Source: Polaribacter sp. (GTDB taxonomy: Bacteria > Bacteroidota > Bacteroidia > Flavobacteriales > Flavobacteriaceae). Taken from it: 64,000 bases of DNA. The stretch is taken from the NCBI GenBank assembly GCA_028343155.1, contig JAOLXX010000002.1, positions 62,001 to 126,000 on the forward strand, given 5' to 3'. The notes under the pieces are model-generated. The model worked only from the letters and a program-made list of their open reading frames with translations. It had not been told where the DNA came from and searched no databases. The first letter of the stretch is position 1. Each line of letters begins with the position of its first letter. The position numbers and the translations under genes were made by a program. Shown one piece after another: positions 15,078 through 27,869 of this stretch.

Positions 15078-18000
15078 ATGAAGTTAAAATTTAAAATAAC
15101 ATTATTACTATTAATGTTTGTAAGTATTTCTTTTTACGCACAGGGAGAATATACTCTGAAAGGTGTTGTAAAAGATGCTCCTAGTAATTCTGCTTTACCA
15201 GGAGTTACAATTACTATATTAAATAGTAATAAAGGAACACAAACAGATTTTGATGGTAAGTATACTATTAAAGTTAAAAAGGGAGATGTACTTCGTTTTT
15301 TATATTTAGGATTTGCTGCTCAATCTATTATTATTGATGCACAAAAAGAATTAAATATTACATTAGTTGAAGATGCTTCACAATTAGACGAAATTGTTGT
15401 TGTAGGTTATGGAACGCAAAAAAAATCTCATCTTACAGGTTCAATTTCAAAAGTTGTAAACGAAAATTTAGATCAAATTGCAGTAGCAAGGGTAGATGAT
15501 GCTTTAATTGGTCAAGTATCTGGTGTTAATATTCAAGCAACTTCTGCAGAAGCTGGTGGTGCACCTACTATTAGAATTAGAGGTACTGGGTCTATTTCAT
15601 CTGATTCAGGACCAGCAATAGTAGTTGACGGTATAATAGTAGATTCTGATTTTCTTGGTATTTTAGATATGAATGATGTAGAATCTTTTGAAGTATTAAA
15701 AGATGCAGCATCTGCAGCTATTTATGGTAGTGAAGGGTCTAATGGTGTAATTTTAATTACCACCAAATCTGGAAAATCTGGAAAAACAAAATTTACTTAC
15801 GACACTTATACAGGTTATAAACAAGCTTTTGGAAGTGAAGACTACTCAAGAAGTCTTTCGGACTGGGCAGCTCTAGAATTAGCTGAGACAGGTACTAATA
15901 CAAATGGTACTTTATACGCTCAAGAATTAGCAAAAGTAACAGGTATTGATAGAGATTGGCAAGAAGTTTTCTTTGATGGAGGTTTTATTACAAGTCATTC
16001 TTTTGCGGCAAGAGGAGGTTCTGAAACTACAAAGTTTAGTGTATCTTTTAGATATCTTCATGATGAAGGAGTTGTGATAACAGACGATTACAAAGTATAC
16101 TCTGCAAAAGTAAAAGTAGATACTAAGTTGTCAGAAAATATTAAGTTTGGAGTTAGTGTTACACCTTCCTACTCAAAGAAAAGAGCATTGCCTACGTCTA
16201 TTCACAATCCAATAAGACAATCGCCTTGGTTACCTATTTATCATACAGCAGAAACGCTTCAATTTATAGATAGAGATGCTTATCCAAATGTTGGTGTAGG
16301 AGATTATTTTAGAGAAGATCATTTAGATGAATTAGATATAAATGGTGATGGTAGTAGTACTACTTCTCGTACATCTGGAGATCAAAATCCATATGCTCAA
16401 TATGTTGAAAGAGAACACTATGAATTTAAAACTAAAATATTAGGTTCTACATACTTGAGTTATAAAATTTTAGATGGACTTACTGCAAAGACTTCTTTAG
16501 GTATCACATTAGAAGACGGTAAAAGAACAAGATGGAATGGTACAGAATACCATCACTCAAATGGAGCTGATTTTGAGTTAAGAAATAGATTTAGAACTAG
16601 ATTAATTTCAGACAATACTTTATCATACAATAAATATGTTGGAGATCACGAATTTAATTTTTTATTAGGTGCTACAATTCAACAAAGAACATCTGAAACT
16701 GAAACTACTAATGGTAGTGGATATTCTAATGATTTGCTTAAAAACTTACAAGGAGCAACAGTTATTACCAAGCCATTAGATGGTCAAATAAATCTTACGA
16801 GAAGAAAGACTGGTTATTTTGCAAGGTTTAACTATTCTTATGCAGATAAATATTTATTCAATGCTTCTTTCAGACGAGATGGTAGTTCTGTTTTTGGAAT
16901 TAATTCTAAATGGGGTAATTTCCCAGCAGCATCTGTTGGTTGGAATGTCTCTAAAGAAAGTTTCTTAGAAGATAACGATGTTATAAGTAACCTAAAATTT
17001 AAAGCAGCTTATGGTCTTACAGGAAACGAAAACTTTAGTACAGGAAGTGATGTAACAAATACTTGGCCTTATTTAGCTTTATTACAATCTACCAATTATA
17101 TTGGAGATGATGGGGCTATATTAGCAGGTTTTTCAGCTTTAAACATTGCAAATCCATTATTACAATGGGAAGCGTCTAGGGAACTTAACATTGGACTAGA
17201 TTATGGGTTTTTTAACAACAGAATATCTGGTTCTTTAGACTATTATAAGAGAACTAGTGATGAATTATTATTAGATCAAGATGTTTCTTATGTTACTGGA
17301 TTTAGTGGAGGAATCGTAAATAAAGGAGAAGTAGAAAACAGAGGTTTGGAATTAGAATTGAGAACCAAAAATATTGCTACGGAAGACTTTAGTTGGTCTT
17401 CAACTATAATAGCTTCTATGAATAGAAACGAATTGCTAAATTTTGGTAACGATGACGGGAATTTAACTGTAGATGGATTTGGAAGAAATACACAGTGGAT
17501 AAATAAAGTTGGTAATCCAATTTCTTCTTTTTATGGATATGTTGTAGACAAAGAAATATCAAAAGAATACTGGGATACTCCATATAACAGAATTAATGGA
17601 CAAGCAGAAGATATTATTGTTAAAGATTTAAATGGTGATGGTATAATTACTGATGATGATAAGACTATTCTTGGAGATCCTTATGCAGATATTACTTGGA
17701 GTTTAACTAATGACTTTAAAATGGGTAATTTTGATTTCTCTGTAATGGTTCAAGGAAGTCAAGGAGCACAGGTAAGAAACGTTGGGGACCAATATTTCTA
17801 TCATTTTAGTGGTGCTACGCTAGATGGTGCGCCAGAAGCCCTAGTTGCTAATGGAACGATACCAGATGTGTCTTTCCTTAAAGCGAAAATTTTTACTGAT
17901 GATATTGTTCAAAATGCAGGCTATATATCGTTACGTAATGTAAACCTTGGGTATACATTACCTGATGATGTAATCTCAAAAATCGGAATTCAATCATTAA

Positions 18001-18167
18001 GAATGTATGTTTCTGGTCAGAATTTAATTTATATAACTTCTGATGATTATCACGGTTTTAACCCAGAATATATTGACACAAACAATACACCTATATCTTA
18101 TGGTTCTCAAAGAGCAGGTACACCTTTGTTTAGTACGTATTCATTTGGTTTAAATGTTAATTTTTAA
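15078..18167 (+). CDS. susC: SusC-type TonB-dependent receptor
   Basis: 1029 aa; carboxypeptidase-like N-domain (LKGVVKDAPSNSALPGVTITILNSNKGTQTDFDGKYTI), LDEIVVVGYGTQKK TonB box, plug and barrel motifs. Confidence 0.95.
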   Translation: MKLKFKITLLLLMFVSISFYAQGEYTLKGVVKDAPSNSALPGVTITILNSNKGTQTDFDGKYTIKVKKGDVLRFLYLGFAAQSIIIDAQKELNITLVEDASQLDEIVVVGYGTQKKSHLTGSISKVVNENLDQIAVARVDDALIGQVSGVNIQATSAEAGGAPTIRIRGTGSISSDSGPAIVVDGIIVDSDFLGILDMNDVESFEVLKDAASAAIYGSEGSNGVILITTKSGKSGKTKFTYDTYTGYKQAFGSEDYSRSLSDWAALELAETGTNTNGTLYAQELAKVTGIDRDWQEVFFDGGFITSHSFAARGGSETTKFSVSFRYLHDEGVVITDDYKVYSAKVKVDTKLSENIKFGVSVTPSYSKKRALPTSIHNPIRQSPWLPIYHTAETLQFIDRDAYPNVGVGDYFREDHLDELDINGDGSSTTSRTSGDQNPYAQYVEREHYEFKTKILGSTYLSYKILDGLTAKTSLGITLEDGKRTRWNGTEYHHSNGADFELRNRFRTRLISDNTLSYNKYVGDHEFNFLLGATIQQRTSETETTNGSGYSNDLLKNLQGATVITKPLDGQINLTRRKTGYFARFNYSYADKYLFNASFRRDGSSVFGINSKWGNFPAASVGWNVSKESFLEDNDVISNLKFKAAYGLTGNENFSTGSDVTNTWPYLALLQSTNYIGDDGAILAGFSALNIANPLLQWEASRELNIGLDYGFFNNRISGSLDYYKRTSDELLLDQDVSYVTGFSGGIVNKGEVENRGLELELRTKNIATEDFSWSSTIIASMNRNELLNFGNDDGNLTVDGFGRNTQWINKVGNPISSFYGYVVDKEISKEYWDTPYNRINGQAEDIIVKDLNGDGIITDDDKTILGDPYADITWSLTNDFKMGNFDFSVMVQGSQGAQVRNVGDQYFYHFSGATLDGAPEALVANGTIPDVSFLKAKIFTDDIVQNAGYISLRNVNLGYTLPDDVISKIGIQSLRMYVSGQNLIYITSDDYHGFNPEYIDTNNTPISYGSQRAGTPLFSTYSFGLNVNF

Positions 18168-18184
18168 TCTTAAAAAAAATAATA

Positions 18185-19726
18185 ATGAAAAATATAAAAT
18201 ATTTATTTTTTGCGCTAATAGGAACAATTTTTATTTCTTGTGATGCAGATGAGTTTTTAAACCCACTTCCAGACACAGTTAATGCTGCTGATGGATTTTA
18301 TCAAAACGACGAACAAATTTTGGCTGGAGTTTTGGGAATGTATGATGCACTTCAAGGTGTAAATGAAAATACTGAAACAAATAGTTCTAACTTTAACAGA
18401 GGTGTGCAGTTTGAATATCTCTTAACTGAGCATCGTTCTGACAATACAAGAAGTGCAACCCTTGAAGGATCTAGGGCTGATTTTCATAGATATGTAACCG
18501 AAGCAATTAACATACAATCTGAAGATTATTATCAATCTATGTATGAAATTATTTTTAGAGCAAATACAATTCTTGCTTCTTTAAATGCTGCTAATGCCGC
18601 AAATGTTGGAAAATATTCAGCGGAAGCTAAATTTTTGAGAGCCCTAGCATATTTTAATTTAATCAGACTTTATGGAAGTGATGATGATTCTATAGGTGGT
18701 GTGCCATTGGTAACTAGTTTAGTAACTGCTGCAGATGAAACGGAACTTTTTACGAGAAAACCAAAAGCAACAGTTTATGAACAAATTGTAAAAGATTTAG
18801 AAGATGCAATTGCTAATTTAGATAATAGTGCTAAGTCAAGAGCTTCAAAAGCTGCGGCTCAAGGAATTTTAGCAAAAGTTTATTTGTCTCAACCATCACC
18901 TGATTTTGATGGTGCAAAAGATTTATGTGAAGCAATTGTAGCAGAAGGTTCTTATAATTTACAAGCTGATTTTAGAGATGTTTTTTACGATGAAATGAAC
19001 AGTGAAATTATTTTTGCTGTTAGATATACTTCAGGAGATCCAAACGAAAGTCAAGGTTTTTCATCTGAATTTACTTCATTTAAACGTCAAGGAAGACAAG
19101 ATGGTTTAAATATTGTGAATCCTAATTTAGTAACTGCTTTTAATGAAAATGGAGGTAATAGAACGGCAGTTTCTTATATTGCTTTTGGTGATGATGCTGA
19201 ACAAGAGTCTGCACCTGGTGTTCCTGCTCCATTAAGTGCTGAAGTTGCAAAATTTTTACCAGAAGGAACCGATGTTACAACAGATCCTGATGCACCAAAA
19301 TATGGTACTTTTCCTAGACTTGCTGGTAATGATTGGCCAGTATTACGTTATGCAGATGTATTATTAATGCATGTAGAAGCAATTTTACGAGGTTCTGGTG
19401 CAGTTAGTACTAGTGATGCAGCCGCTTTAGCTTCATTCAATGCTATTAGAAATCGTGCTGGTCTAGATAATGACACTGATGGTTCAATAACAATAGAAGA
19501 ATTATTATTAGAAAGAAGAGTAGAATTGGCTTTTGAGAACCAACGTTTCTTTGATTTGTTAAGATTTGGAGTTGCTGATGACGTATTATCTAATCATTCA
19601 GCCGAAGATAATAACTTAGATGTATCAGTTTATCCTAGTTATAATGCTAGAGCTTTACTATTGCCAATTCCTTCGAGAGAAATTAATTTGAGTAAAGGTC
19701 TTTTAAAGCAAAACCCTGGTTATTAA
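18185..19726 (+). CDS. susD: SusD/RagB-type glycan-binding lipoprotein
   Basis: Lipobox FISCDADEFLNPLPD; RALAYFNLIRLYG; C-terminal LLLERRVELAFENQRFFDLLRFG..LLPIPSREINLSKGLLKQNPGY. Confidence 0.95.
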   Translation: MKNIKYLFFALIGTIFISCDADEFLNPLPDTVNAADGFYQNDEQILAGVLGMYDALQGVNENTETNSSNFNRGVQFEYLLTEHRSDNTRSATLEGSRADFHRYVTEAINIQSEDYYQSMYEIIFRANTILASLNAANAANVGKYSAEAKFLRALAYFNLIRLYGSDDDSIGGVPLVTSLVTAADETELFTRKPKATVYEQIVKDLEDAIANLDNSAKSRASKAAAQGILAKVYLSQPSPDFDGAKDLCEAIVAEGSYNLQADFRDVFYDEMNSEIIFAVRYTSGDPNESQGFSSEFTSFKRQGRQDGLNIVNPNLVTAFNENGGNRTAVSYIAFGDDAEQESAPGVPAPLSAEVAKFLPEGTDVTTDPDAPKYGTFPRLAGNDWPVLRYADVLLMHVEAILRGSGAVSTSDAAALASFNAIRNRAGLDNDTDGSITIEELLLERRVELAFENQRFFDLLRFGVADDVLSNHSAEDNNLDVSVYPSYNARALLLPIPSREINLSKGLLKQNPGY

Positions 19727-19744
19727 TACACAAAAAATAAAAAT

Positions 19745-20929
19745 ATGAAACATAAATTAAGTACCTTGAATAACGCCATAAAAATTGCGTTAAGTTTATT
19801 TGCGATAGTTTTCGTAATAAGCTGTGAAGAAGCCTTTGAGTTTGATTTACCAGATACTGGGTCTATAGCAGATGCTACATTGCCAGAAGCAAACTTTAGC
19901 TTCGCTCCAAAACCAGAAGATTTTAGAGTTTTAAAATTTGTCAATACATCTAATGAATCAACTAAATACGTTTGGGATTTTGGAGATTCTACAGATCTAA
20001 GTACAAATCTAGATAGTATAACCAAAGTTTATTTCTTTGAATATTTAGATAGTGAAGGTTACAGTTCTCTTAAGAACAACGAGCTTCTTATAAGTAATGA
20101 AAAACTTGAAAAAGACCCTGATCCGATTTATCTTGATAGCGTTGAAAATGTTATTAATGAAATTTATACGAGTCTTGAGAATGTTACTTACACACTTGGA
20201 GACATCAATAGTGCTGTTAAAGAGTTAAAAGATCCTATGTATATTTACCTTAATGCAGATCCAGATGTTACCAAAACAACAGATTACCAAGTAACATTAA
20301 CGGCTTCTGATGCAAACAATGCTTCAGGAGTTCTAACTGAGACAATTCAGCTACAAAATGTTTTTGTACCTATAAATCCAACACTTGTACTTGGAGACTT
20401 TGAAAGTTCTTCGCTTACTTCTACTTGGAGAATAACTCCTTTTACAGATGGAACTACAAATGCTCCTAATTCTTCATCTGATGGTTCTAATAACAATTAT
20501 GATGGTGTAGATACTGGATCTAAAACACGAGGTATGAAATTTGCGGCAGATACATCTGACCCTACAAAACCAAATAGTAGAAGGTATGGACACCAAAAAG
20601 TAACAGTTTCTCCATCAACGGTAGATCGTACAGTAAAATACATTATAGAATATGAATATGCTATAAAACTTGCTGCAAAAGCTGGAAGTAATATAACCGT
20701 ACAAATTTTAGACGGACAGTTTACAGATGGAAAAGATGCTTTAACAGCTAATACTTTAGCAACATCAGTTGCTGACGAATTATTAGGTAAAGGAAACTTC
20801 ACAACGGTTAAAAAAGAGTTTAACTCTAATGATAGTGGCTTAATTACTATATGGATTTCTGGTGATACAGATCAAGATGCATATTTAGACAATGTTAAAA
20901 TATATCCTAAACCAGGAGTAAAATATTAA
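19745..20929 (+). CDS. PKD-domain lipoprotein with C-terminal carbohydrate-binding-like module (SusE/F position)
   Basis: Lipobox VISCEEAFEF; PKD-like FVNTSNESTKYVWDFGDST; C-terminal module NYDGVDTGSKTRGMK..YEYAIKLAA..DAYLDNVKIYP. Confidence 0.75.
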   Translation: MKHKLSTLNNAIKIALSLFAIVFVISCEEAFEFDLPDTGSIADATLPEANFSFAPKPEDFRVLKFVNTSNESTKYVWDFGDSTDLSTNLDSITKVYFFEYLDSEGYSSLKNNELLISNEKLEKDPDPIYLDSVENVINEIYTSLENVTYTLGDINSAVKELKDPMYIYLNADPDVTKTTDYQVTLTASDANNASGVLTETIQLQNVFVPINPTLVLGDFESSSLTSTWRITPFTDGTTNAPNSSSDGSNNNYDGVDTGSKTRGMKFAADTSDPTKPNSRRYGHQKVTVSPSTVDRTVKYIIEYEYAIKLAAKAGSNITVQILDGQFTDGKDALTANTLATSVADELLGKGNFTTVKKEFNSNDSGLITIWISGDTDQDAYLDNVKIYPKPGVKY

Positions 20930-20942
20930 AAAAATAAAAATT

Positions 20943-22700
20943 ATGAACTTATTTAAAAAAGGAATATTTGCATTACTTATAACTATTGTTATAATTTCAT
21001 GTGAAGAAAATGACACTCTAGTTAACCCAGATGCAGGTAATATAGGTACAGGTCTTACGCAAATTACATTTCCAAAAATTCCAACAAGTTCGGTTGAAAT
21101 TAGTGGCGATGGGTCAATAGTTACCATAAGACCACAAGGTTTAGGAATTGATTCTTATGTAGTTGATTTTGGAGATGTAGATAGTGAAGAAGATGTAGAA
21201 ATAATTTCTGAAGATGCGGGTACTGCTACTTATGATTATCCCAATAATGTTGCAGAATTTACATACACAATAACTGTAACTGCAAAATCTAATAAGGGTT
21301 TTCCAGATGTTGTTCAAACTATAGATGTAGAAGTTGAACACGGATTTACTCCTGTATCATCAGCACCAGATTCACCAACGATTCTTAATGAAAATACAGT
21401 TGCTATTTTTAGTGATGGTATTGAAAGTGATGGTGCATTTATTGCATATACAAACAGTATATCTGATTCTGATTTTGAGGATGGTAATGCAGAATATAAT
21501 GAAGTAGAAGTTGGAGATATAAAAAATAAAGTAATTCAGTATTCTAGACTTCATGATGCTATTGCTGCCTCTATTGCTTTTGATTCTGCTATTAATGTTG
21601 CAGATGTTTTTGGAACAGATGCTTCTGCTGATTATCTTCACTTAGACCTTCATTCTATTCATGATATTGGTGTTGATAAAGTAAAAATATCATTAGCAGG
21701 GAAAACTTTTGAACAAACTTTAACGGATGATGTGTGGACAAGTGTAGATATAGATTTATCTGCTGAAGGAATCACACAGATTGATGACATAAAATTAGAA
21801 TTAGGGACAGGAGGTACAGCAAGTAATGAGGCAAGTCTTAATGTAGATAATATTTATTTTTATAGAGAAGCACTTTCAATTCCTGAATTTTCTTTTGATG
21901 ATGTAGCTAGTGATTATGATGTTACATTTACAAATGCATCTGAACTTGCAACTAGTTATAGTTGGGATTTTGGAGATGGTATAGGTAGTTCAACAGATGA
22001 AAACCCAACATACAGTTATATTAATGATGGTTTGGAGAAGACGTATATGGTTACATTAACAACTACAAATTTTATTAATAAACCTACTTCTATTACAAAA
22101 GAAATTACTGTTGGTGGTCCATCTGGCCCTATTGATCCGGTAATTATTCATGGAGATTTAAATTTGAATGATTCTTCTATGTCTGCTGCTTGGAAAATAG
22201 CTAATTCACCATCTGGTAAGAGTGATCCTTTTGGACGTAGTGCTGATGGTTCTTGTACAGACTACGATGGTGTAGCAACAGGATCAAAAACTAGAGGTGC
22301 AAAATGGTCTAGTTCTCAAGGTGCATCAGATATAAATGGTACACCTGTAGCTGGTAATACTAGATATGCTTATCAAGCTGTAACTTTGACCCCTAATACA
22401 GATTATGTTTTTGAATATGCATATGCTATAAAGACAGGAGGGTCTGCAGACAATGCTATTGTTGCTAGCATTTTAAACGGTCATTTTGATGGTTCTGAAG
22501 TGTTAAGTACCAATCCATTGATTAAACATATTGGAACAATTGCTAATGGTAAATTTGGGGACAATTCATGTTCTGGAGGAACTATTGTTCAAGAAACATT
22601 TAGATCTAACGCTGTTGGTGAGGTAGCTATCTTTATTTATAGCTTTACTGATGTTGTTGATGCTTTCGTAGATAATATTAAAATCTACCCGGCACCTTAA
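20943..22700 (+). CDS. multidomain PKD lipoprotein with carbohydrate-binding-like modules
   Basis: Lipobox IISCEENDT; PKD-like FTNASELATSYSWDFGDGIGSSTDENPTYSY; C-terminal module DYDGVATGSKTRGAK..FEYAYAIKTGG..DAFVDNIKIYPAP paralogous to the preceding gene. Confidence 0.75.
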   Translation: MNLFKKGIFALLITIVIISCEENDTLVNPDAGNIGTGLTQITFPKIPTSSVEISGDGSIVTIRPQGLGIDSYVVDFGDVDSEEDVEIISEDAGTATYDYPNNVAEFTYTITVTAKSNKGFPDVVQTIDVEVEHGFTPVSSAPDSPTILNENTVAIFSDGIESDGAFIAYTNSISDSDFEDGNAEYNEVEVGDIKNKVIQYSRLHDAIAASIAFDSAINVADVFGTDASADYLHLDLHSIHDIGVDKVKISLAGKTFEQTLTDDVWTSVDIDLSAEGITQIDDIKLELGTGGTASNEASLNVDNIYFYREALSIPEFSFDDVASDYDVTFTNASELATSYSWDFGDGIGSSTDENPTYSYINDGLEKTYMVTLTTTNFINKPTSITKEITVGGPSGPIDPVIIHGDLNLNDSSMSAAWKIANSPSGKSDPFGRSADGSCTDYDGVATGSKTRGAKWSSSQGASDINGTPVAGNTRYAYQAVTLTPNTDYVFEYAYAIKTGGSADNAIVASILNGHFDGSEVLSTNPLIKHIGTIANGKFGDNSCSGGTIVQETFRSNAVGEVAIFIYSFTDVVDAFVDNIKIYPAP

Positions 22701-22709
22701 TCATCTTAA

Positions 22710-23630
22710 ATGAAAAATTTCCGAATAAAAGTATTATTCTTTTTAACAATACTAATTTTTACTTCTGTTAACGCTATTTGTCAAGAAAAGACAAATAGCG
22801 TTGAAGTATCTAAACTGAAAGTTGAAAAAAAGCGAAAGAAGAAAAGAAAGAAAAAAGTAAGGCTTCCAAAAATTGATTTAAGTCATTGGAAAGTAACGCT
22901 ACCAGTTGCAAATAAAGAAGGAAAACCTGTTGAAATTAGTCCACCTGAGATTTTAGATTTTGCAAATAACAAAATTGCAAAACCCTATATGTATATAGAT
23001 TCAACAAAAGGAGCGATTGTTTTTCACGCCATGCCTACCAATTCTAAAACTAGAAATACAAAGTATACTAGATCAGAATTAAGAGAGCAAATGGTGCCAG
23101 GAAGTAATTCTACAAACTGGACATTTAAAGATGGAGGCTATATGAGAGCAAAAATAGCTATGCAAAAAACAACCAAAGATAGTGATGGTAAATACCATAG
23201 AACTATTATTATGCAAATCCATGGACGTTTAACAAATGAACAACGAGATTTAATTGGTGAAGATGATAACAATGCACCACCAATTTTAAAAATCTATTGG
23301 GACAAAGGGAAAATTAGAATAAAGACTAAGATTTTAAAAAACCTAAATGCTACATATGAAGAAATGTTACATGAAAAAGCATGGGATAACGATGAAGGTT
23401 TCAATTTTGAACAAGAAGTAGGTTTCAGAAAATTTACATTAGAAGTAAAAGTTACAGAAGGTAAAATGGTAATTATTTTAAATAGAAATGAGTATAAAGT
23501 TTATGAAAATATTCATATGAGAAAATGGGGTATTTTTGAAAATTACTTTAAAGCCGGAAATTACTTTCAATCTAGAGATAAAGGAGCATTTTCTAAGGTT
23601 CGTTTTTATGAATTAGAAGCTAGCCATTAA
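22710..23630 (+). CDS. PL7 family alginate lyase
   Basis: PL7 hallmark motifs RSELREQM, IMQIHGR and YFKAGNYFQS, all visible; follows the SusCD operon. Confidence 0.92.
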   Translation: MKNFRIKVLFFLTILIFTSVNAICQEKTNSVEVSKLKVEKKRKKKRKKKVRLPKIDLSHWKVTLPVANKEGKPVEISPPEILDFANNKIAKPYMYIDSTKGAIVFHAMPTNSKTRNTKYTRSELREQMVPGSNSTNWTFKDGGYMRAKIAMQKTTKDSDGKYHRTIIMQIHGRLTNEQRDLIGEDDNNAPPILKIYWDKGKIRIKTKILKNLNATYEEMLHEKAWDNDEGFNFEQEVGFRKFTLEVKVTEGKMVIILNRNEYKVYENIHMRKWGIFENYFKAGNYFQSRDKGAFSKVRFYELEASH

Positions 23631-24887: not shown

Positions 24888-26144
24888 TTATTGCGCTAGC
24901 GATTTATTTGAACTTAGGAAGTTTTTAAAAGGTATCTGAAATAATCTATTTTTACTGGCAAGTATTTCTATATATGCCTCATAGAGTTGCTGTTCGATTT
25001 TAATAATTTCAATATTTTTATTTTGAACACTCATCTCGAGTTTCAATAGAATGAGCGGTGAAATTCCTTCAATTTTTTTGTAGGTATTTAAAAGCGAAGA
25101 CACACTGCTATTTGCTGCTTGATCCTTGTATACTTGATAGTTCGTTACTGTTCTTCTAAAGTTTTCTTCAGCAGTAGTTTCTTCTTTTTTTTGTAGTTTT
25201 TGGAGTGTAAATATTTCACTTTCAGTACGGAGCTTCTTGAAATAATAATCTCCTTTTTTTTCTCTAACGTTTCCAAAGAATGGGAGGTTTATACCCATTC
25301 CTATTGCGAATTTTTCTTCAAATAAGTTACTATTCTTACCACCATATTTTACTTGAACAAAATCAATAATTTTTTTAGATTTTGCGACATCTAATTTCAT
25401 TTCGCCTTCTATAGTTTCTAGTTTTAATTTTTTCAACTGAATTTTTAAGTTGTCTTTTGGAGTTTTTACAATAAGAGCACACTCAATAATTTGTGCTGGA
25501 GTTATAATATCATCGCTTTTTAGATAATGATTGTTTTTACGATTACCAATCATGAGTTGTAATATGGCATCATGATATGCTTGTGCTTGCTGAAGATTTT
25601 GTAAAATAATTTGATTATCAAAGATCGCTTCTTCAGTTTCAATAAGGTCATTTACATTAAAAACTTCGGTGTAAATAGCTGTCTTTAAAAGTGATATTTT
25701 ATCCTTTAATTGCGTTTTTCTTAGCTGATAGGCACCAATTAGTTTCTTATTGAATACGTAAGCAACTAAGAAATAATAGCGGTCTTCTAATTCTTCAATA
25801 AGTCGGATGCGTCCTTGAATTTGTACTTCATTAATTTTTGATTTGTAGACCTTTTTATTAGCAAGCCTCCCTCGCAAGCTATTGGGTTTAACCCTGATGG
25901 TATATTCTTGTCTAGGTAGAAGTAAATCTCTTGTTTCGGTTCTAAACTCTACATTGTCTATTAGCTGTAAATTATGATTGTAATTTTTAAGAAATGCTAA
26001 TTGAATAGAATCAAATTTTACCTGTTCTATTTGATTTGCTCCAAGAAGCAATTGGGTCGTTGAAATTCCTTTTTGTGCATTTCCAGAAAGGAAAGACATC
26101 CCTATAAAAAATAATAAAAGTTGAAGTCGACACGAAAAACACAT
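24888..26144 (-). CDS. TolC-like outer-membrane protein (coiled-coil efflux-type)
   Basis: Signal peptide; long helical coiled coil and GMGINLPFFGNVREKKGDYYFKKLRTESEIFTLQK resembling the TolC family; adjacent to an HlyD-like gene. Confidence 0.6.
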   Translation of the reverse strand: MCFSCRLQLLLFFIGMSFLSGNAQKGISTTQLLLGANQIEQVKFDSIQLAFLKNYNHNLQLIDNVEFRTETRDLLLPRQEYTIRVKPNSLRGRLANKKVYKSKINEVQIQGRIRLIEELEDRYYFLVAYVFNKKLIGAYQLRKTQLKDKISLLKTAIYTEVFNVNDLIETEEAIFDNQIILQNLQQAQAYHDAILQLMIGNRKNNHYLKSDDIITPAQIIECALIVKTPKDNLKIQLKKLKLETIEGEMKLDVAKSKKIIDFVQVKYGGKNSNLFEEKFAIGMGINLPFFGNVREKKGDYYFKKLRTESEIFTLQKLQKKEETTAEENFRRTVTNYQVYKDQAANSSVSSLLNTYKKIEGISPLILLKLEMSVQNKNIEIIKIEQQLYEAYIEILASKNRLFQIPFKNFLSSNKSLAQ

Positions 26145-26161
26145 TTTATTTTTGGTTATTT

Positions 26162-27175
26162 TTATTGAGCTAAGGTTAAGGTTACTTTTTCTTTTTGTAA
26201 AAAAGGATTATCAGGTGGTATTTCAATAATTACTTCTCTACCAAAAGTTTTAAGTTCTTTTATCTTTCTAATTCTTGGTGGGATTTCAACAATTCGAGAG
26301 CCTAAAGTTTTAATAATACCAATATTTTGGATGTCAGGTCTTGATGTTGAAAAGACGGTAATGGTATCTTGGAGTTTTACCTTTAAAAGGAGGTCCTCAT
26401 GTATATAACCGATAACTAATGTTGGGCTTTCTTCATAGAAAGTAACCAAGGGTGTAAAAGAGGCTATTTTTTCATCTTCATTACAATGAATAGTTCCAAT
26501 CAATCCATTTGAGGGAGCTATAATGGTTTCTTTTTCTTTTTTTAACTGGTAATACTTCAACTCTTTTTCTAGTATTTTAATTCTAGAAAGCAATGGATTA
26601 TTGGAAGCGAATCGCTCCGTTTTTAAATTGTTTATTTGTGTGGTTAGAATATCCACCGCAAATTTTAATTCTTCTTTTAGGGCGATAATTCTAATAAGTA
26701 TCGGATTGGAATTGGCTTGTTGAGAAGTGTTACTTATATCAATACTTTTTAGCGTATTGGCTAGTTTTTTGTTGTTCTCTAATTGTGCATAATATTCTGC
26801 TATTTGCGCCTTAAATTTACTTCTTTTTTCGTTGAGTAAAATCGTAGTCTCTGCAATGCGACCGTCAAGATCAGTTTTCCAAATCGAGTATCTAGTAGTT
26901 AATTCTTCGATGCTGTAGATTGCATTATTAATTTTAACGGGCAATATGGAAGAAAATACATCAAGTAAAATAGCTCCTTTTTTTACTTTTTGTCCTGTCG
27001 TCACATGAATTCGAGAAACTTCTATTGGGTTTTCCATATTAATTTGCGTTTCCTTATTTTCAGCAAAACCATAAAAGGTAACTGAAGTATTCATTCCTAA
27101 TGAAAAAGAAACGATTAAAAGGATACCTGCAAGTAAGGCAGCTATATGTATAGGACTAAATTTTTTCATAGTCAT
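26162..27175 (-). CDS. HlyD-like membrane-fusion/periplasmic adaptor protein
   Basis: One N-terminal TM; lipoyl-like halves (ENPIEVSRIHVTTGQKVKKGAILLDV / ETIIAPSNGLIGTIHCNEDEKIASFTPLVTF) around a coiled-coil hairpin; overlaps the upstream gene. Confidence 0.75.
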   Translation of the reverse strand: MTMKKFSPIHIAALLAGILLIVSFSLGMNTSVTFYGFAENKETQINMENPIEVSRIHVTTGQKVKKGAILLDVFSSILPVKINNAIYSIEELTTRYSIWKTDLDGRIAETTILLNEKRSKFKAQIAEYYAQLENNKKLANTLKSIDISNTSQQANSNPILIRIIALKEELKFAVDILTTQINNLKTERFASNNPLLSRIKILEKELKYYQLKKEKETIIAPSNGLIGTIHCNEDEKIASFTPLVTFYEESPTLVIGYIHEDLLLKVKLQDTITVFSTSRPDIQNIGIIKTLGSRIVEIPPRIRKIKELKTFGREVIIEIPPDNPFLQKEKVTLTLAQ

Positions 27176-27869
27176 CTATAAAGTTAATTTTTATGTTAAA
27201 CACGCCTTCGGTTTTAGATAGTTTATTTACAATGTATTTGGCTTTTTCTTGATCAACAACTTTAATCTTAAATGCAAATAGTACTGTTTTAGATCCCGCT
27301 TTATTTTTGCCTTTTCCAGCTACATTATATTTTGTTAGTGAGAATTTAACACAGTTAATTTTTAAAATTTCTTCAATTTTTTGCCAAGTATCTTCAGATT
27401 CTAAAGCGCTATCTGGAACTTCAAATTGAAGGTTCCCAACGACATGATTTGCTTTACTAATTGGTGAAAAGTAAATCAAAAAAACGATGGAACAAAAAGC
27501 AATTGTACCTATTAGTGCAATATGAATTCCATAGATACCTGCAGAAATACCGACTGCAATAGAGGTAAACATAAAAACCATATTTCTTGGGTTTCTCAAG
27601 GTAGTTCTAAATCGAATAATCGCTAGGGCTCCTAGCATTCCTAGACCTCGTGCCAGACTGTCACCTATTGCCTGCATTACGGTTGCTACCGGAATAGAAA
27701 TCAAAATTAAAGATTGAATAAAATATTTAGGACTCTCAATTTCCCGAGAAGTTCTTTGATAGGTTATCGCTATTAAAGAGGAAAGTGCAAAAGAAACTAA
27801 CGCAATCACAATGATGTTGGTTAGTGAAGTTCCTTCTAGGTTATTGTTCAGGTTTGAAAGGTCAAACAT
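27156..27869 (-). CDS. DUF4956-like membrane protein
   Basis: RGLGMLGALAIIRFRTTLRNPRNMVFMFTSIAVGISAGIYGIHIALIGTIAFCSIVF and a C-terminal ferredoxin-like soluble part; typical DUF4956. Confidence 0.8.
   Translation of the reverse strand: MFDLSNLNNNLEGTSLTNIIVIALVSFALSSLIAITYQRTSREIESPKYFIQSLILISIPVATVMQAIGDSLARGLGMLGALAIIRFRTTLRNPRNMVFMFTSIAVGISAGIYGIHIALIGTIAFCSIVFLIYFSPISKANHVVGNLQFEVPDSALESEDTWQKIEEILKINCVKFSLTKYNVAGKGKNKAGSKTVLFAFKIKVVDQEKAKYIVNKLSKTEGVFNIKINFIDDYEKI

Follow-up and report, generated by a model that had tools for sequence, protein, structure and literature searches.

Tripartite exporters, as described so far, are machines of the ABC, RND or MFS type. A precedent for a HlyD-type adaptor whose inner-membrane protein is not from one of the main pump families is offered by the AaeAB/FUSC-type exporters; DUF4956, the inner-membrane protein considered here, belongs to a different family from theirs. 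In tripartite efflux and type 1 secretion (EmrAB-TolC, MacAB-TolC, HlyBD-TolC; PMC8277102), a HlyD-type adaptor with a long hairpin adjoins a TolC-fold channel in one operon, as it does at the locus studied here. Unlike in these systems, DUF4956 stands in the place of the ABC, RND or MFS transporter.

Another close relative is found in Gram-positive bacteria, where the streptococcal pel genes are adjoined by genes for CotH, a polyphosphate polymerase, DUF4956 and DUF4832 (PMC7112168). One streptococcal protein, SIR_1592, has a MgtC-type domain with four transmembrane segments and a cytoplasmic ACT domain (PMC12345266), and from the gene list in PMC7112168 we infer that it is the DUF4956 protein. 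Its deletion led to more Pel and less aggregation, while deletion of the adjoining CotH gene led to less Pel (PMC12345266). The Gram-positive set (PMC7112168, PMC12345266) has in common with the trio a DUF4956 protein with an MgtC-like transmembrane part and an ACT-like tail, and, at related loci, a link to CotH; unlike that set, the cassette described here lies in a diderm, has an adaptor and a TolC-like protein added, and is missing VTC. DUF4956 is little known and is named in only three papers of the open-access literature that we searched, in which no DUF4956-HlyD-TolC system is described.

The trio and its three proteins

The window, that is, the whole 64,000-nucleotide stretch of Polaribacter sp. 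DNA that was analysed, contains at 24888-27869 three minus-strand genes which the sequence-only reading had taken for a DUF4956, adaptor and TolC-like operon with no pump gene. The arrangement was re-read from the open reading frames and is as described: the DUF4956 and adaptor genes overlap by 20 nt, a gap of 17 nt separates the adaptor gene from the TolC-like gene, and no ABC, RND or MFS gene is present in the run. The features are the following.

27156..27869, minus strand: DUF4956 gene, 237 aa, PF16316 at 54.4 bits (cut-off 30.6)
26162..27175, minus strand: HlyD-type periplasmic adaptor gene, 337 aa, profile matches to HlyD-type families
24888..26144, minus strand: TolC-fold outer-membrane channel gene, 418 aa, AF2 model (pLDDT 80.5) and Foldseek matches to TolC/OprM/CusC
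27603..27614, minus strand: R86-F-R88-T motif of DUF4956, both arginines identical in 114/114 aligned DUF4956 proteins
27660..27662, minus strand: D70 of DUF4956, D in 36/36 TolC-linked proteins
26660..26707, minus strand: hairpin quasi-repeat of the adaptor, copy 1 NPILIRIIALKEELKF, residues 157-172
26552..26599, minus strand: hairpin quasi-repeat of the adaptor, copy 2 NPLLSRIKILEKELKY, residues 193-208

A divergent AlkB-like gene flanks the trio upstream and a convergent NAD-binding dehydrogenase gene downstream. The number of sites in a promoter and terminator scan was not above that in shuffles. The same window also carries a likely alginate-utilisation locus on the plus strand at 15078-23630, with a 1029-aa open reading frame at the SusC position, SusD (18185-19726), a PKD-domain protein (20943-22700) and an alginate-lyase-2 family protein (22710-23630).

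The first protein is assigned to DUF4956 by PF16316, whose curated cut-off it clearly exceeds. Against the MgtC family (PF02308) it reaches 14.1 bits, under the cut-off of 31.4, and several DUF4956 loci are weakly found by a PF02308 search. When a profile of 113 DUF4956 members was compared with MgtC, the hhalign probability was 96.5 over 190 columns, the C-terminal domain included; the closest 17 DUF4956 proteins alone gave only 65, and the adaptor and channel profiles gave 0.1. Judged from these profiles, DUF4956 is a distant MgtC relative, composed of an MgtC-like transmembrane part and a C-terminal ACT/ferredoxin-like domain, with the distant homology extending over both. Unlike the MgtC family, it has an invariant RFR motif and adjoins adaptor/TolC, VTC and CotH genes. 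Residue 70 is D in every TolC-linked protein (locus L209 included) and N in 36 of the 38 VTC/adaptor-linked ones, a pattern which follows the DUF4956 tree, so that it may reflect ancestry rather than function. The transmembrane segments of DUF4956 number four or five. Its AF2 model is weak (pLDDT 60), and in the fold search its tail matched only small ferredoxin-like folds (S6, ACT), the search being uninformative for the transmembrane part. A short DUF4956 of 185 aa occurs in genus g129 (L165-L176) beside a MORN-repeat gene and without VTC, adaptor or TolC; the family may have been put to a separate use there.

The relative MgtC has a known role as a regulator (of ATP synthase and PhoR; cited in PMC12345266), and this counts against DUF4956 as a transporter. 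On the strength of the homology, it could be proposed that no transport takes place at all: DUF4956 would signal or control the phosphate or energy state like MgtC, and the adaptor and TolC-like protein would be an envelope tether or sensor arm to surface CotH. The mild, regulatory-looking phenotype of the streptococcal homologue agrees with this proposal; the homologue has neither an adaptor nor TolC to work with, and when it is deleted Pel goes up and is not blocked, which counts against an export role. To our knowledge, no transport activity is known for DUF4956, which also counts against such a role. Nevertheless, all TolC-fold channels and HlyD-type adaptors characterised so far serve as conduits, and outer-membrane barrels are used instead in other DUF4956 operons, so we regard the non-transport proposal as decidedly improbable.

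The second protein, which had been called HlyD-like, is an adaptor of the HlyD type. The profile of its orthologues matches the solved structures of HlyD, EmrA and MacA at E about 1e-3, and a relative in family f24 is above the Pfam cut-offs of both HlyD_D23 and HlyD_3. The window protein itself matches HlyD_D23 in Pfam and, in NCBIfam, RND_mfp (1.9e-8) and type_I_hlyD (5e-6), all below the cut-offs. It has an N-terminal transmembrane segment, a split lipoyl domain, a long helical hairpin (about residues 84-215) and a highly conserved C-terminal region. In known adaptors the C-terminal region contacts the inner-membrane partner. Here it is the best conserved domain (mean 0.80, 25 of 49 positions invariant, compared with 0.54 in the hairpin), as expected if the inner-membrane partner is constant. 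The internal quasi-repeat that had been noticed in the hairpin is real: 9 of the 16 residues are identical at a spacing of 36 aa, and none of 200 shuffles equalled it, with the hydrophobic pattern kept or not. It is retained by most Flavobacteriaceae orthologues and is missing from Saprospiraceae.

The third protein has no match by sequence in Pfam, NCBIfam or the PDB, and its TolC-like identity was established from the fold. The AF2 model, built from 13 orthologues, shows two helix / beta-hairpin / helix repeats as in TolC. Foldseek against the PDB returned 43 matches at E<=1e-3, every one of the TolC/OprM/CusC type (best E 1.2e-12); the TM-scores are mostly 0.5-0.64, and therefore the fold class is clear while the details are not. 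A comparison of its profile with the OEP protein of L209 gave an uninformative hhalign probability of 8, the likeness being carried by the fold comparison. In two metagenome assemblies (L026:10721-11903 and L035:10821-11760) the TolC-like gene is broken into two frames, by a frameshift or an assembly error.

Conservation of the trio and the search for a pump

It was found that the order DUF4956-adaptor-TolC is conserved at 34 loci from at least four families (Flavobacteriaceae, Saprospiraceae and two more), a count which includes the window and the near-identical L023, with loci of one family not being independent and many being metagenome-assembled. Searching 84,980 species genomes with the DUF4956 protein yielded 17 loci; wherever the contig is long enough, DUF4956 is followed there by an adaptor gene and then a TolC-like gene of the same strand. 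The order holds down to 38-47% DUF4956 identity, in Saprospiraceae. With the adaptor profile, 19 carriers were found among 396 Bacteroidota genomes, 17 of them in f24. Spacing over the 34 loci is tight, mostly -20 to +14 nt between DUF4956 and adaptor and mostly -8 to +17 nt between adaptor and channel. The cassette is patchy in its occurrence: a DUF4956 relative is present in 8 of 151 sampled genomes of the window's own family, a close adaptor orthologue is present in the same sample only in the window genome and in G091, and DUF4956 is absent from three genomes of the window's genus.

None of the 34 operons was seen to contain a transporter gene. Neither ABC ATPase motifs nor proteins of RND- or MFS-like size and transmembrane count were found in the same-strand run of the trio, where detection was by motif and hydropathy and Pfam was applied to the only close candidates. 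These two pump candidates, near one locus (L024), were identified by Pfam as gluconokinase-6PGD and Nramp, and both are outside the trio.

The pump might still be encoded elsewhere and be served by the adaptor and the TolC-like protein, in which case DUF4956 would regulate that exporter or be an accessory subunit of it. Such an arrangement has some basis, as TolC-type channels are often common to several pumps, MgtC relatives are known as regulators, and the ACT-like tail suggests ligand control. We consider it rather unlikely, however, because at 34 loci in distant families the pump is never there and DUF4956 always comes first, directly beside the adaptor, and because the adaptor-DUF4956 pairing also occurs in VTC operons without TolC.

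The surroundings of the trio were also compared. In f24 the trio is part of a syntenic block beside mutS, with the order BrkB, methylpurine glycosylase, YceI, DUF6580, DUF4956, adaptor, TolC-like, SDR. Unrelated genes are co-transcribed in compact genomes, and these f24 copies lie within a block of repair and housekeeping genes; both facts would suit three co-transcribed genes with separate functions, brought together by chance or housekeeping. This explanation is very improbable in our judgement, as the trio stays intact while its surroundings differ between families, and DUF4956-adaptor pairs recur in rearranged operons.

At the f24 loci L062-L078, next to mutS, the trio invariably comes after YceI and DUF6580 and before a short-chain dehydrogenase gene. 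In the Saprospiraceae loci L036-L039 a thioredoxin-like gene precedes the trio and there is no CotH in the operon; several of these loci have, after the trio, a type-IX-tagged lysyl-oxidase-like protein, a glucose/sorbosone dehydrogenase and a TonB-dependent receptor.

The CotH/VTC/DUF4956 module

The sequence-only reading linked DUF4956 to nearby VTC or CotH genes. The link is correct, with CotH first in many orthologous operons and VTC present as well at the sister locus of the trio. In Flavobacteriaceae and some Saprospiraceae relatives, one to three large CotH kinase/LTD/Por_Secre_tail (type IX secretion) proteins lead the operon, and a protein of the CotH-LTD-type IX kind, 1756 aa long, is present in an order-level relative. 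CotH is present in the same operon at 12 related loci and absent beside the trio of the window, L023 and f24. The window genome has two CotH genes elsewhere, which were considered as relocated operon orthologues and rejected: their best identity is about 32%, compared with 61-70% among the operon CotH proteins, and thus they are not orthologues. Of the 88 genomes with DUF4956 in the 396-genome sample, 72 have CotH-LTD relatives, against 31 of the 308 that lack DUF4956 (uncorrected for kinship, and with some matches possibly due to LTD or the secretion tail alone), and all 19 trio-bearing genomes have them. A CotH gene on contig C26 of the window genome (L079:1-3698) shares about 50% identity with the CotH proteins of L209 and L187; its neighbours are YHYH, MORN-like and SCO1/SenC genes, with no VTC or DUF4956.

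The wider module was surveyed through the neighbourhoods of 114 Bacteroidota DUF4956 genes, with the VTC, HlyD, DUF2490 and OEP assignments confirmed by Pfam on examples. A HlyD-type adaptor is in the operon at 74 of these loci, in three different gene orders, and this recurrence argues for DUF4956 and the adaptor being a functional pair. The trio accounts for 34 loci and VTC with an adaptor (adaptor-VTC-DUF4956 or VTC-DUF4956-adaptor) for 37, 6 of them with CotH. Three further loci bear an adaptor: L209, with the order CotH-DUF4956-HlyD-OEP-VTC, L214, and L027 at a contig end. VTC-DUF4956 is accompanied by a DUF2490 outer-membrane barrel at 15 loci (6 with CotH), VTC is found with neither adaptor nor barrel at 11 (1 with CotH), and 14 have no VTC, adaptor or TolC (2 with CotH). 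The window adaptor and those of the adaptor-VTC-DUF4956 class were compared by hhalign, which gave a probability of 96 over 215 columns. CotH, VTC and DUF4956 occur together in Bacteroidota operons, whereas no synteny of CotH, polyphosphate polymerase and DUF4956 had been seen outside pel (PMC7112168).

In the DUF4956 tree, made by a quick method and with some long branches elsewhere, the trio members form one group (SH-aLRT 83) with L209 as its sister (97). No VTC was found in G091, G162, the 17 f24 carriers or the window genome, which is 81% complete; among 13 other carriers, 5 have VTC at some place in their genome. Read most simply, the cassette is a branch of the CotH/VTC/DUF4956 module in which the adaptor and TolC were kept while VTC disappeared from the operon. 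PelG (PF16933) was not found in the window genome or in 18 of 20 genomes tested, which were trio carriers and VTC/CotH carriers.

A proposed export role

The observation of the trio is confirmed, and its interpretation is supported for the genes and their genomic context: the trio follows the layout of the adaptor/TolC exporters, except that its inner-membrane protein is a non-classical one, and it is tied to the CotH/VTC module. The recurrence of this pump-less trio across distant Bacteroidota suggests an undescribed envelope-spanning exporter linked to secreted CotH kinases. On balance, we judge it somewhat more probable than not that the three proteins make up one envelope-spanning export complex in which DUF4956 replaces the ABC, RND or MFS transporter; they would then be a single assembly with DUF4956 as its translocator. 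The main argument for transport is that the Gram-positive pel module does without an adaptor or outer-membrane part while Bacteroidota repeatedly have one (TolC, a DUF2490 barrel, a porin or an adaptor), such as an exporter would need. We infer that DUF4956 most likely acts on the inner-membrane side of an exporter that spans the envelope and serves CotH proteins at the cell surface; the assembly, substrate and energy source given below are proposals.

In the proposed assembly, the MgtC-like DUF4956, with its ACT-like domain in the cytoplasm, would sit in the inner membrane under the HlyD-type adaptor, which would be docked on the TolC-type channel. At its invariant RFR motif, and under the control of the ACT-like domain, DUF4956 may take up a cytoplasmic substrate that is phosphorylated or polyanionic; the adaptor/TolC conduit would carry it from DUF4956 to the cell surface, where type-IX-secreted CotH-LTD proteins would use it or act on it. 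The nature of the substrate is suggested by the links to VTC, CotH and the phosphate-selective porin type and by the invariant arginines, and we hold a phosphorylated or polyanionic substrate to be rather unlikely. VTC, the likeliest substrate maker, was not found in the f24 carriers or the window genome, which counts against the proposal, and so does the lack of linkage to CotH in f24 and the window.

A further step, which we put forward tentatively and with more doubt than confidence, is that DUF4956 is a fourth inner-membrane class for adaptor/TolC exporters: an MgtC-like channel or carrier exporting a phosphorylated or polyanionic substrate through both membranes to extracellular CotH kinases, driven possibly by polymer synthesis in the VTC branch and by another force in the VTC-less branch, with D70 as a candidate coupling residue. 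If true, a conserved adaptor/TolC operon that has an MgtC-like protein and no pump would extend the known inner-membrane classes by one, and DUF4956 would gain a testable role that ties together secreted CotH kinases, polyphosphate-polymerase-like VTC enzymes, DUF2490 barrels and MgtC relatives. It would also offer one way in which a kinase outside the cytoplasm, such as CotH, might be supplied with a phosphate-containing substrate.

Within this proposal, the cassette would be the VTC-less branch of a Bacteroidota module made of DUF4956, secreted CotH and usually a polyphosphate-polymerase-like VTC, and the outer-membrane or periplasmic part of the module varies, being a DUF2490 barrel, an adaptor alone, or an adaptor with TolC.

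Other outer-membrane partners were observed in the survey. At L163:5915-8701, DUF4956 is directly followed by a porin-O/P-like gene and CotH. VTC-DUF4956 with a DUF2490 barrel, in some cases with CotH (L141, L142, L145-L156, L161), is frequent in Bacteroidota, and the DUF4956 and DUF2490 genes BT3498-BT3499 are listed as iron-dependent (PMC10434189).
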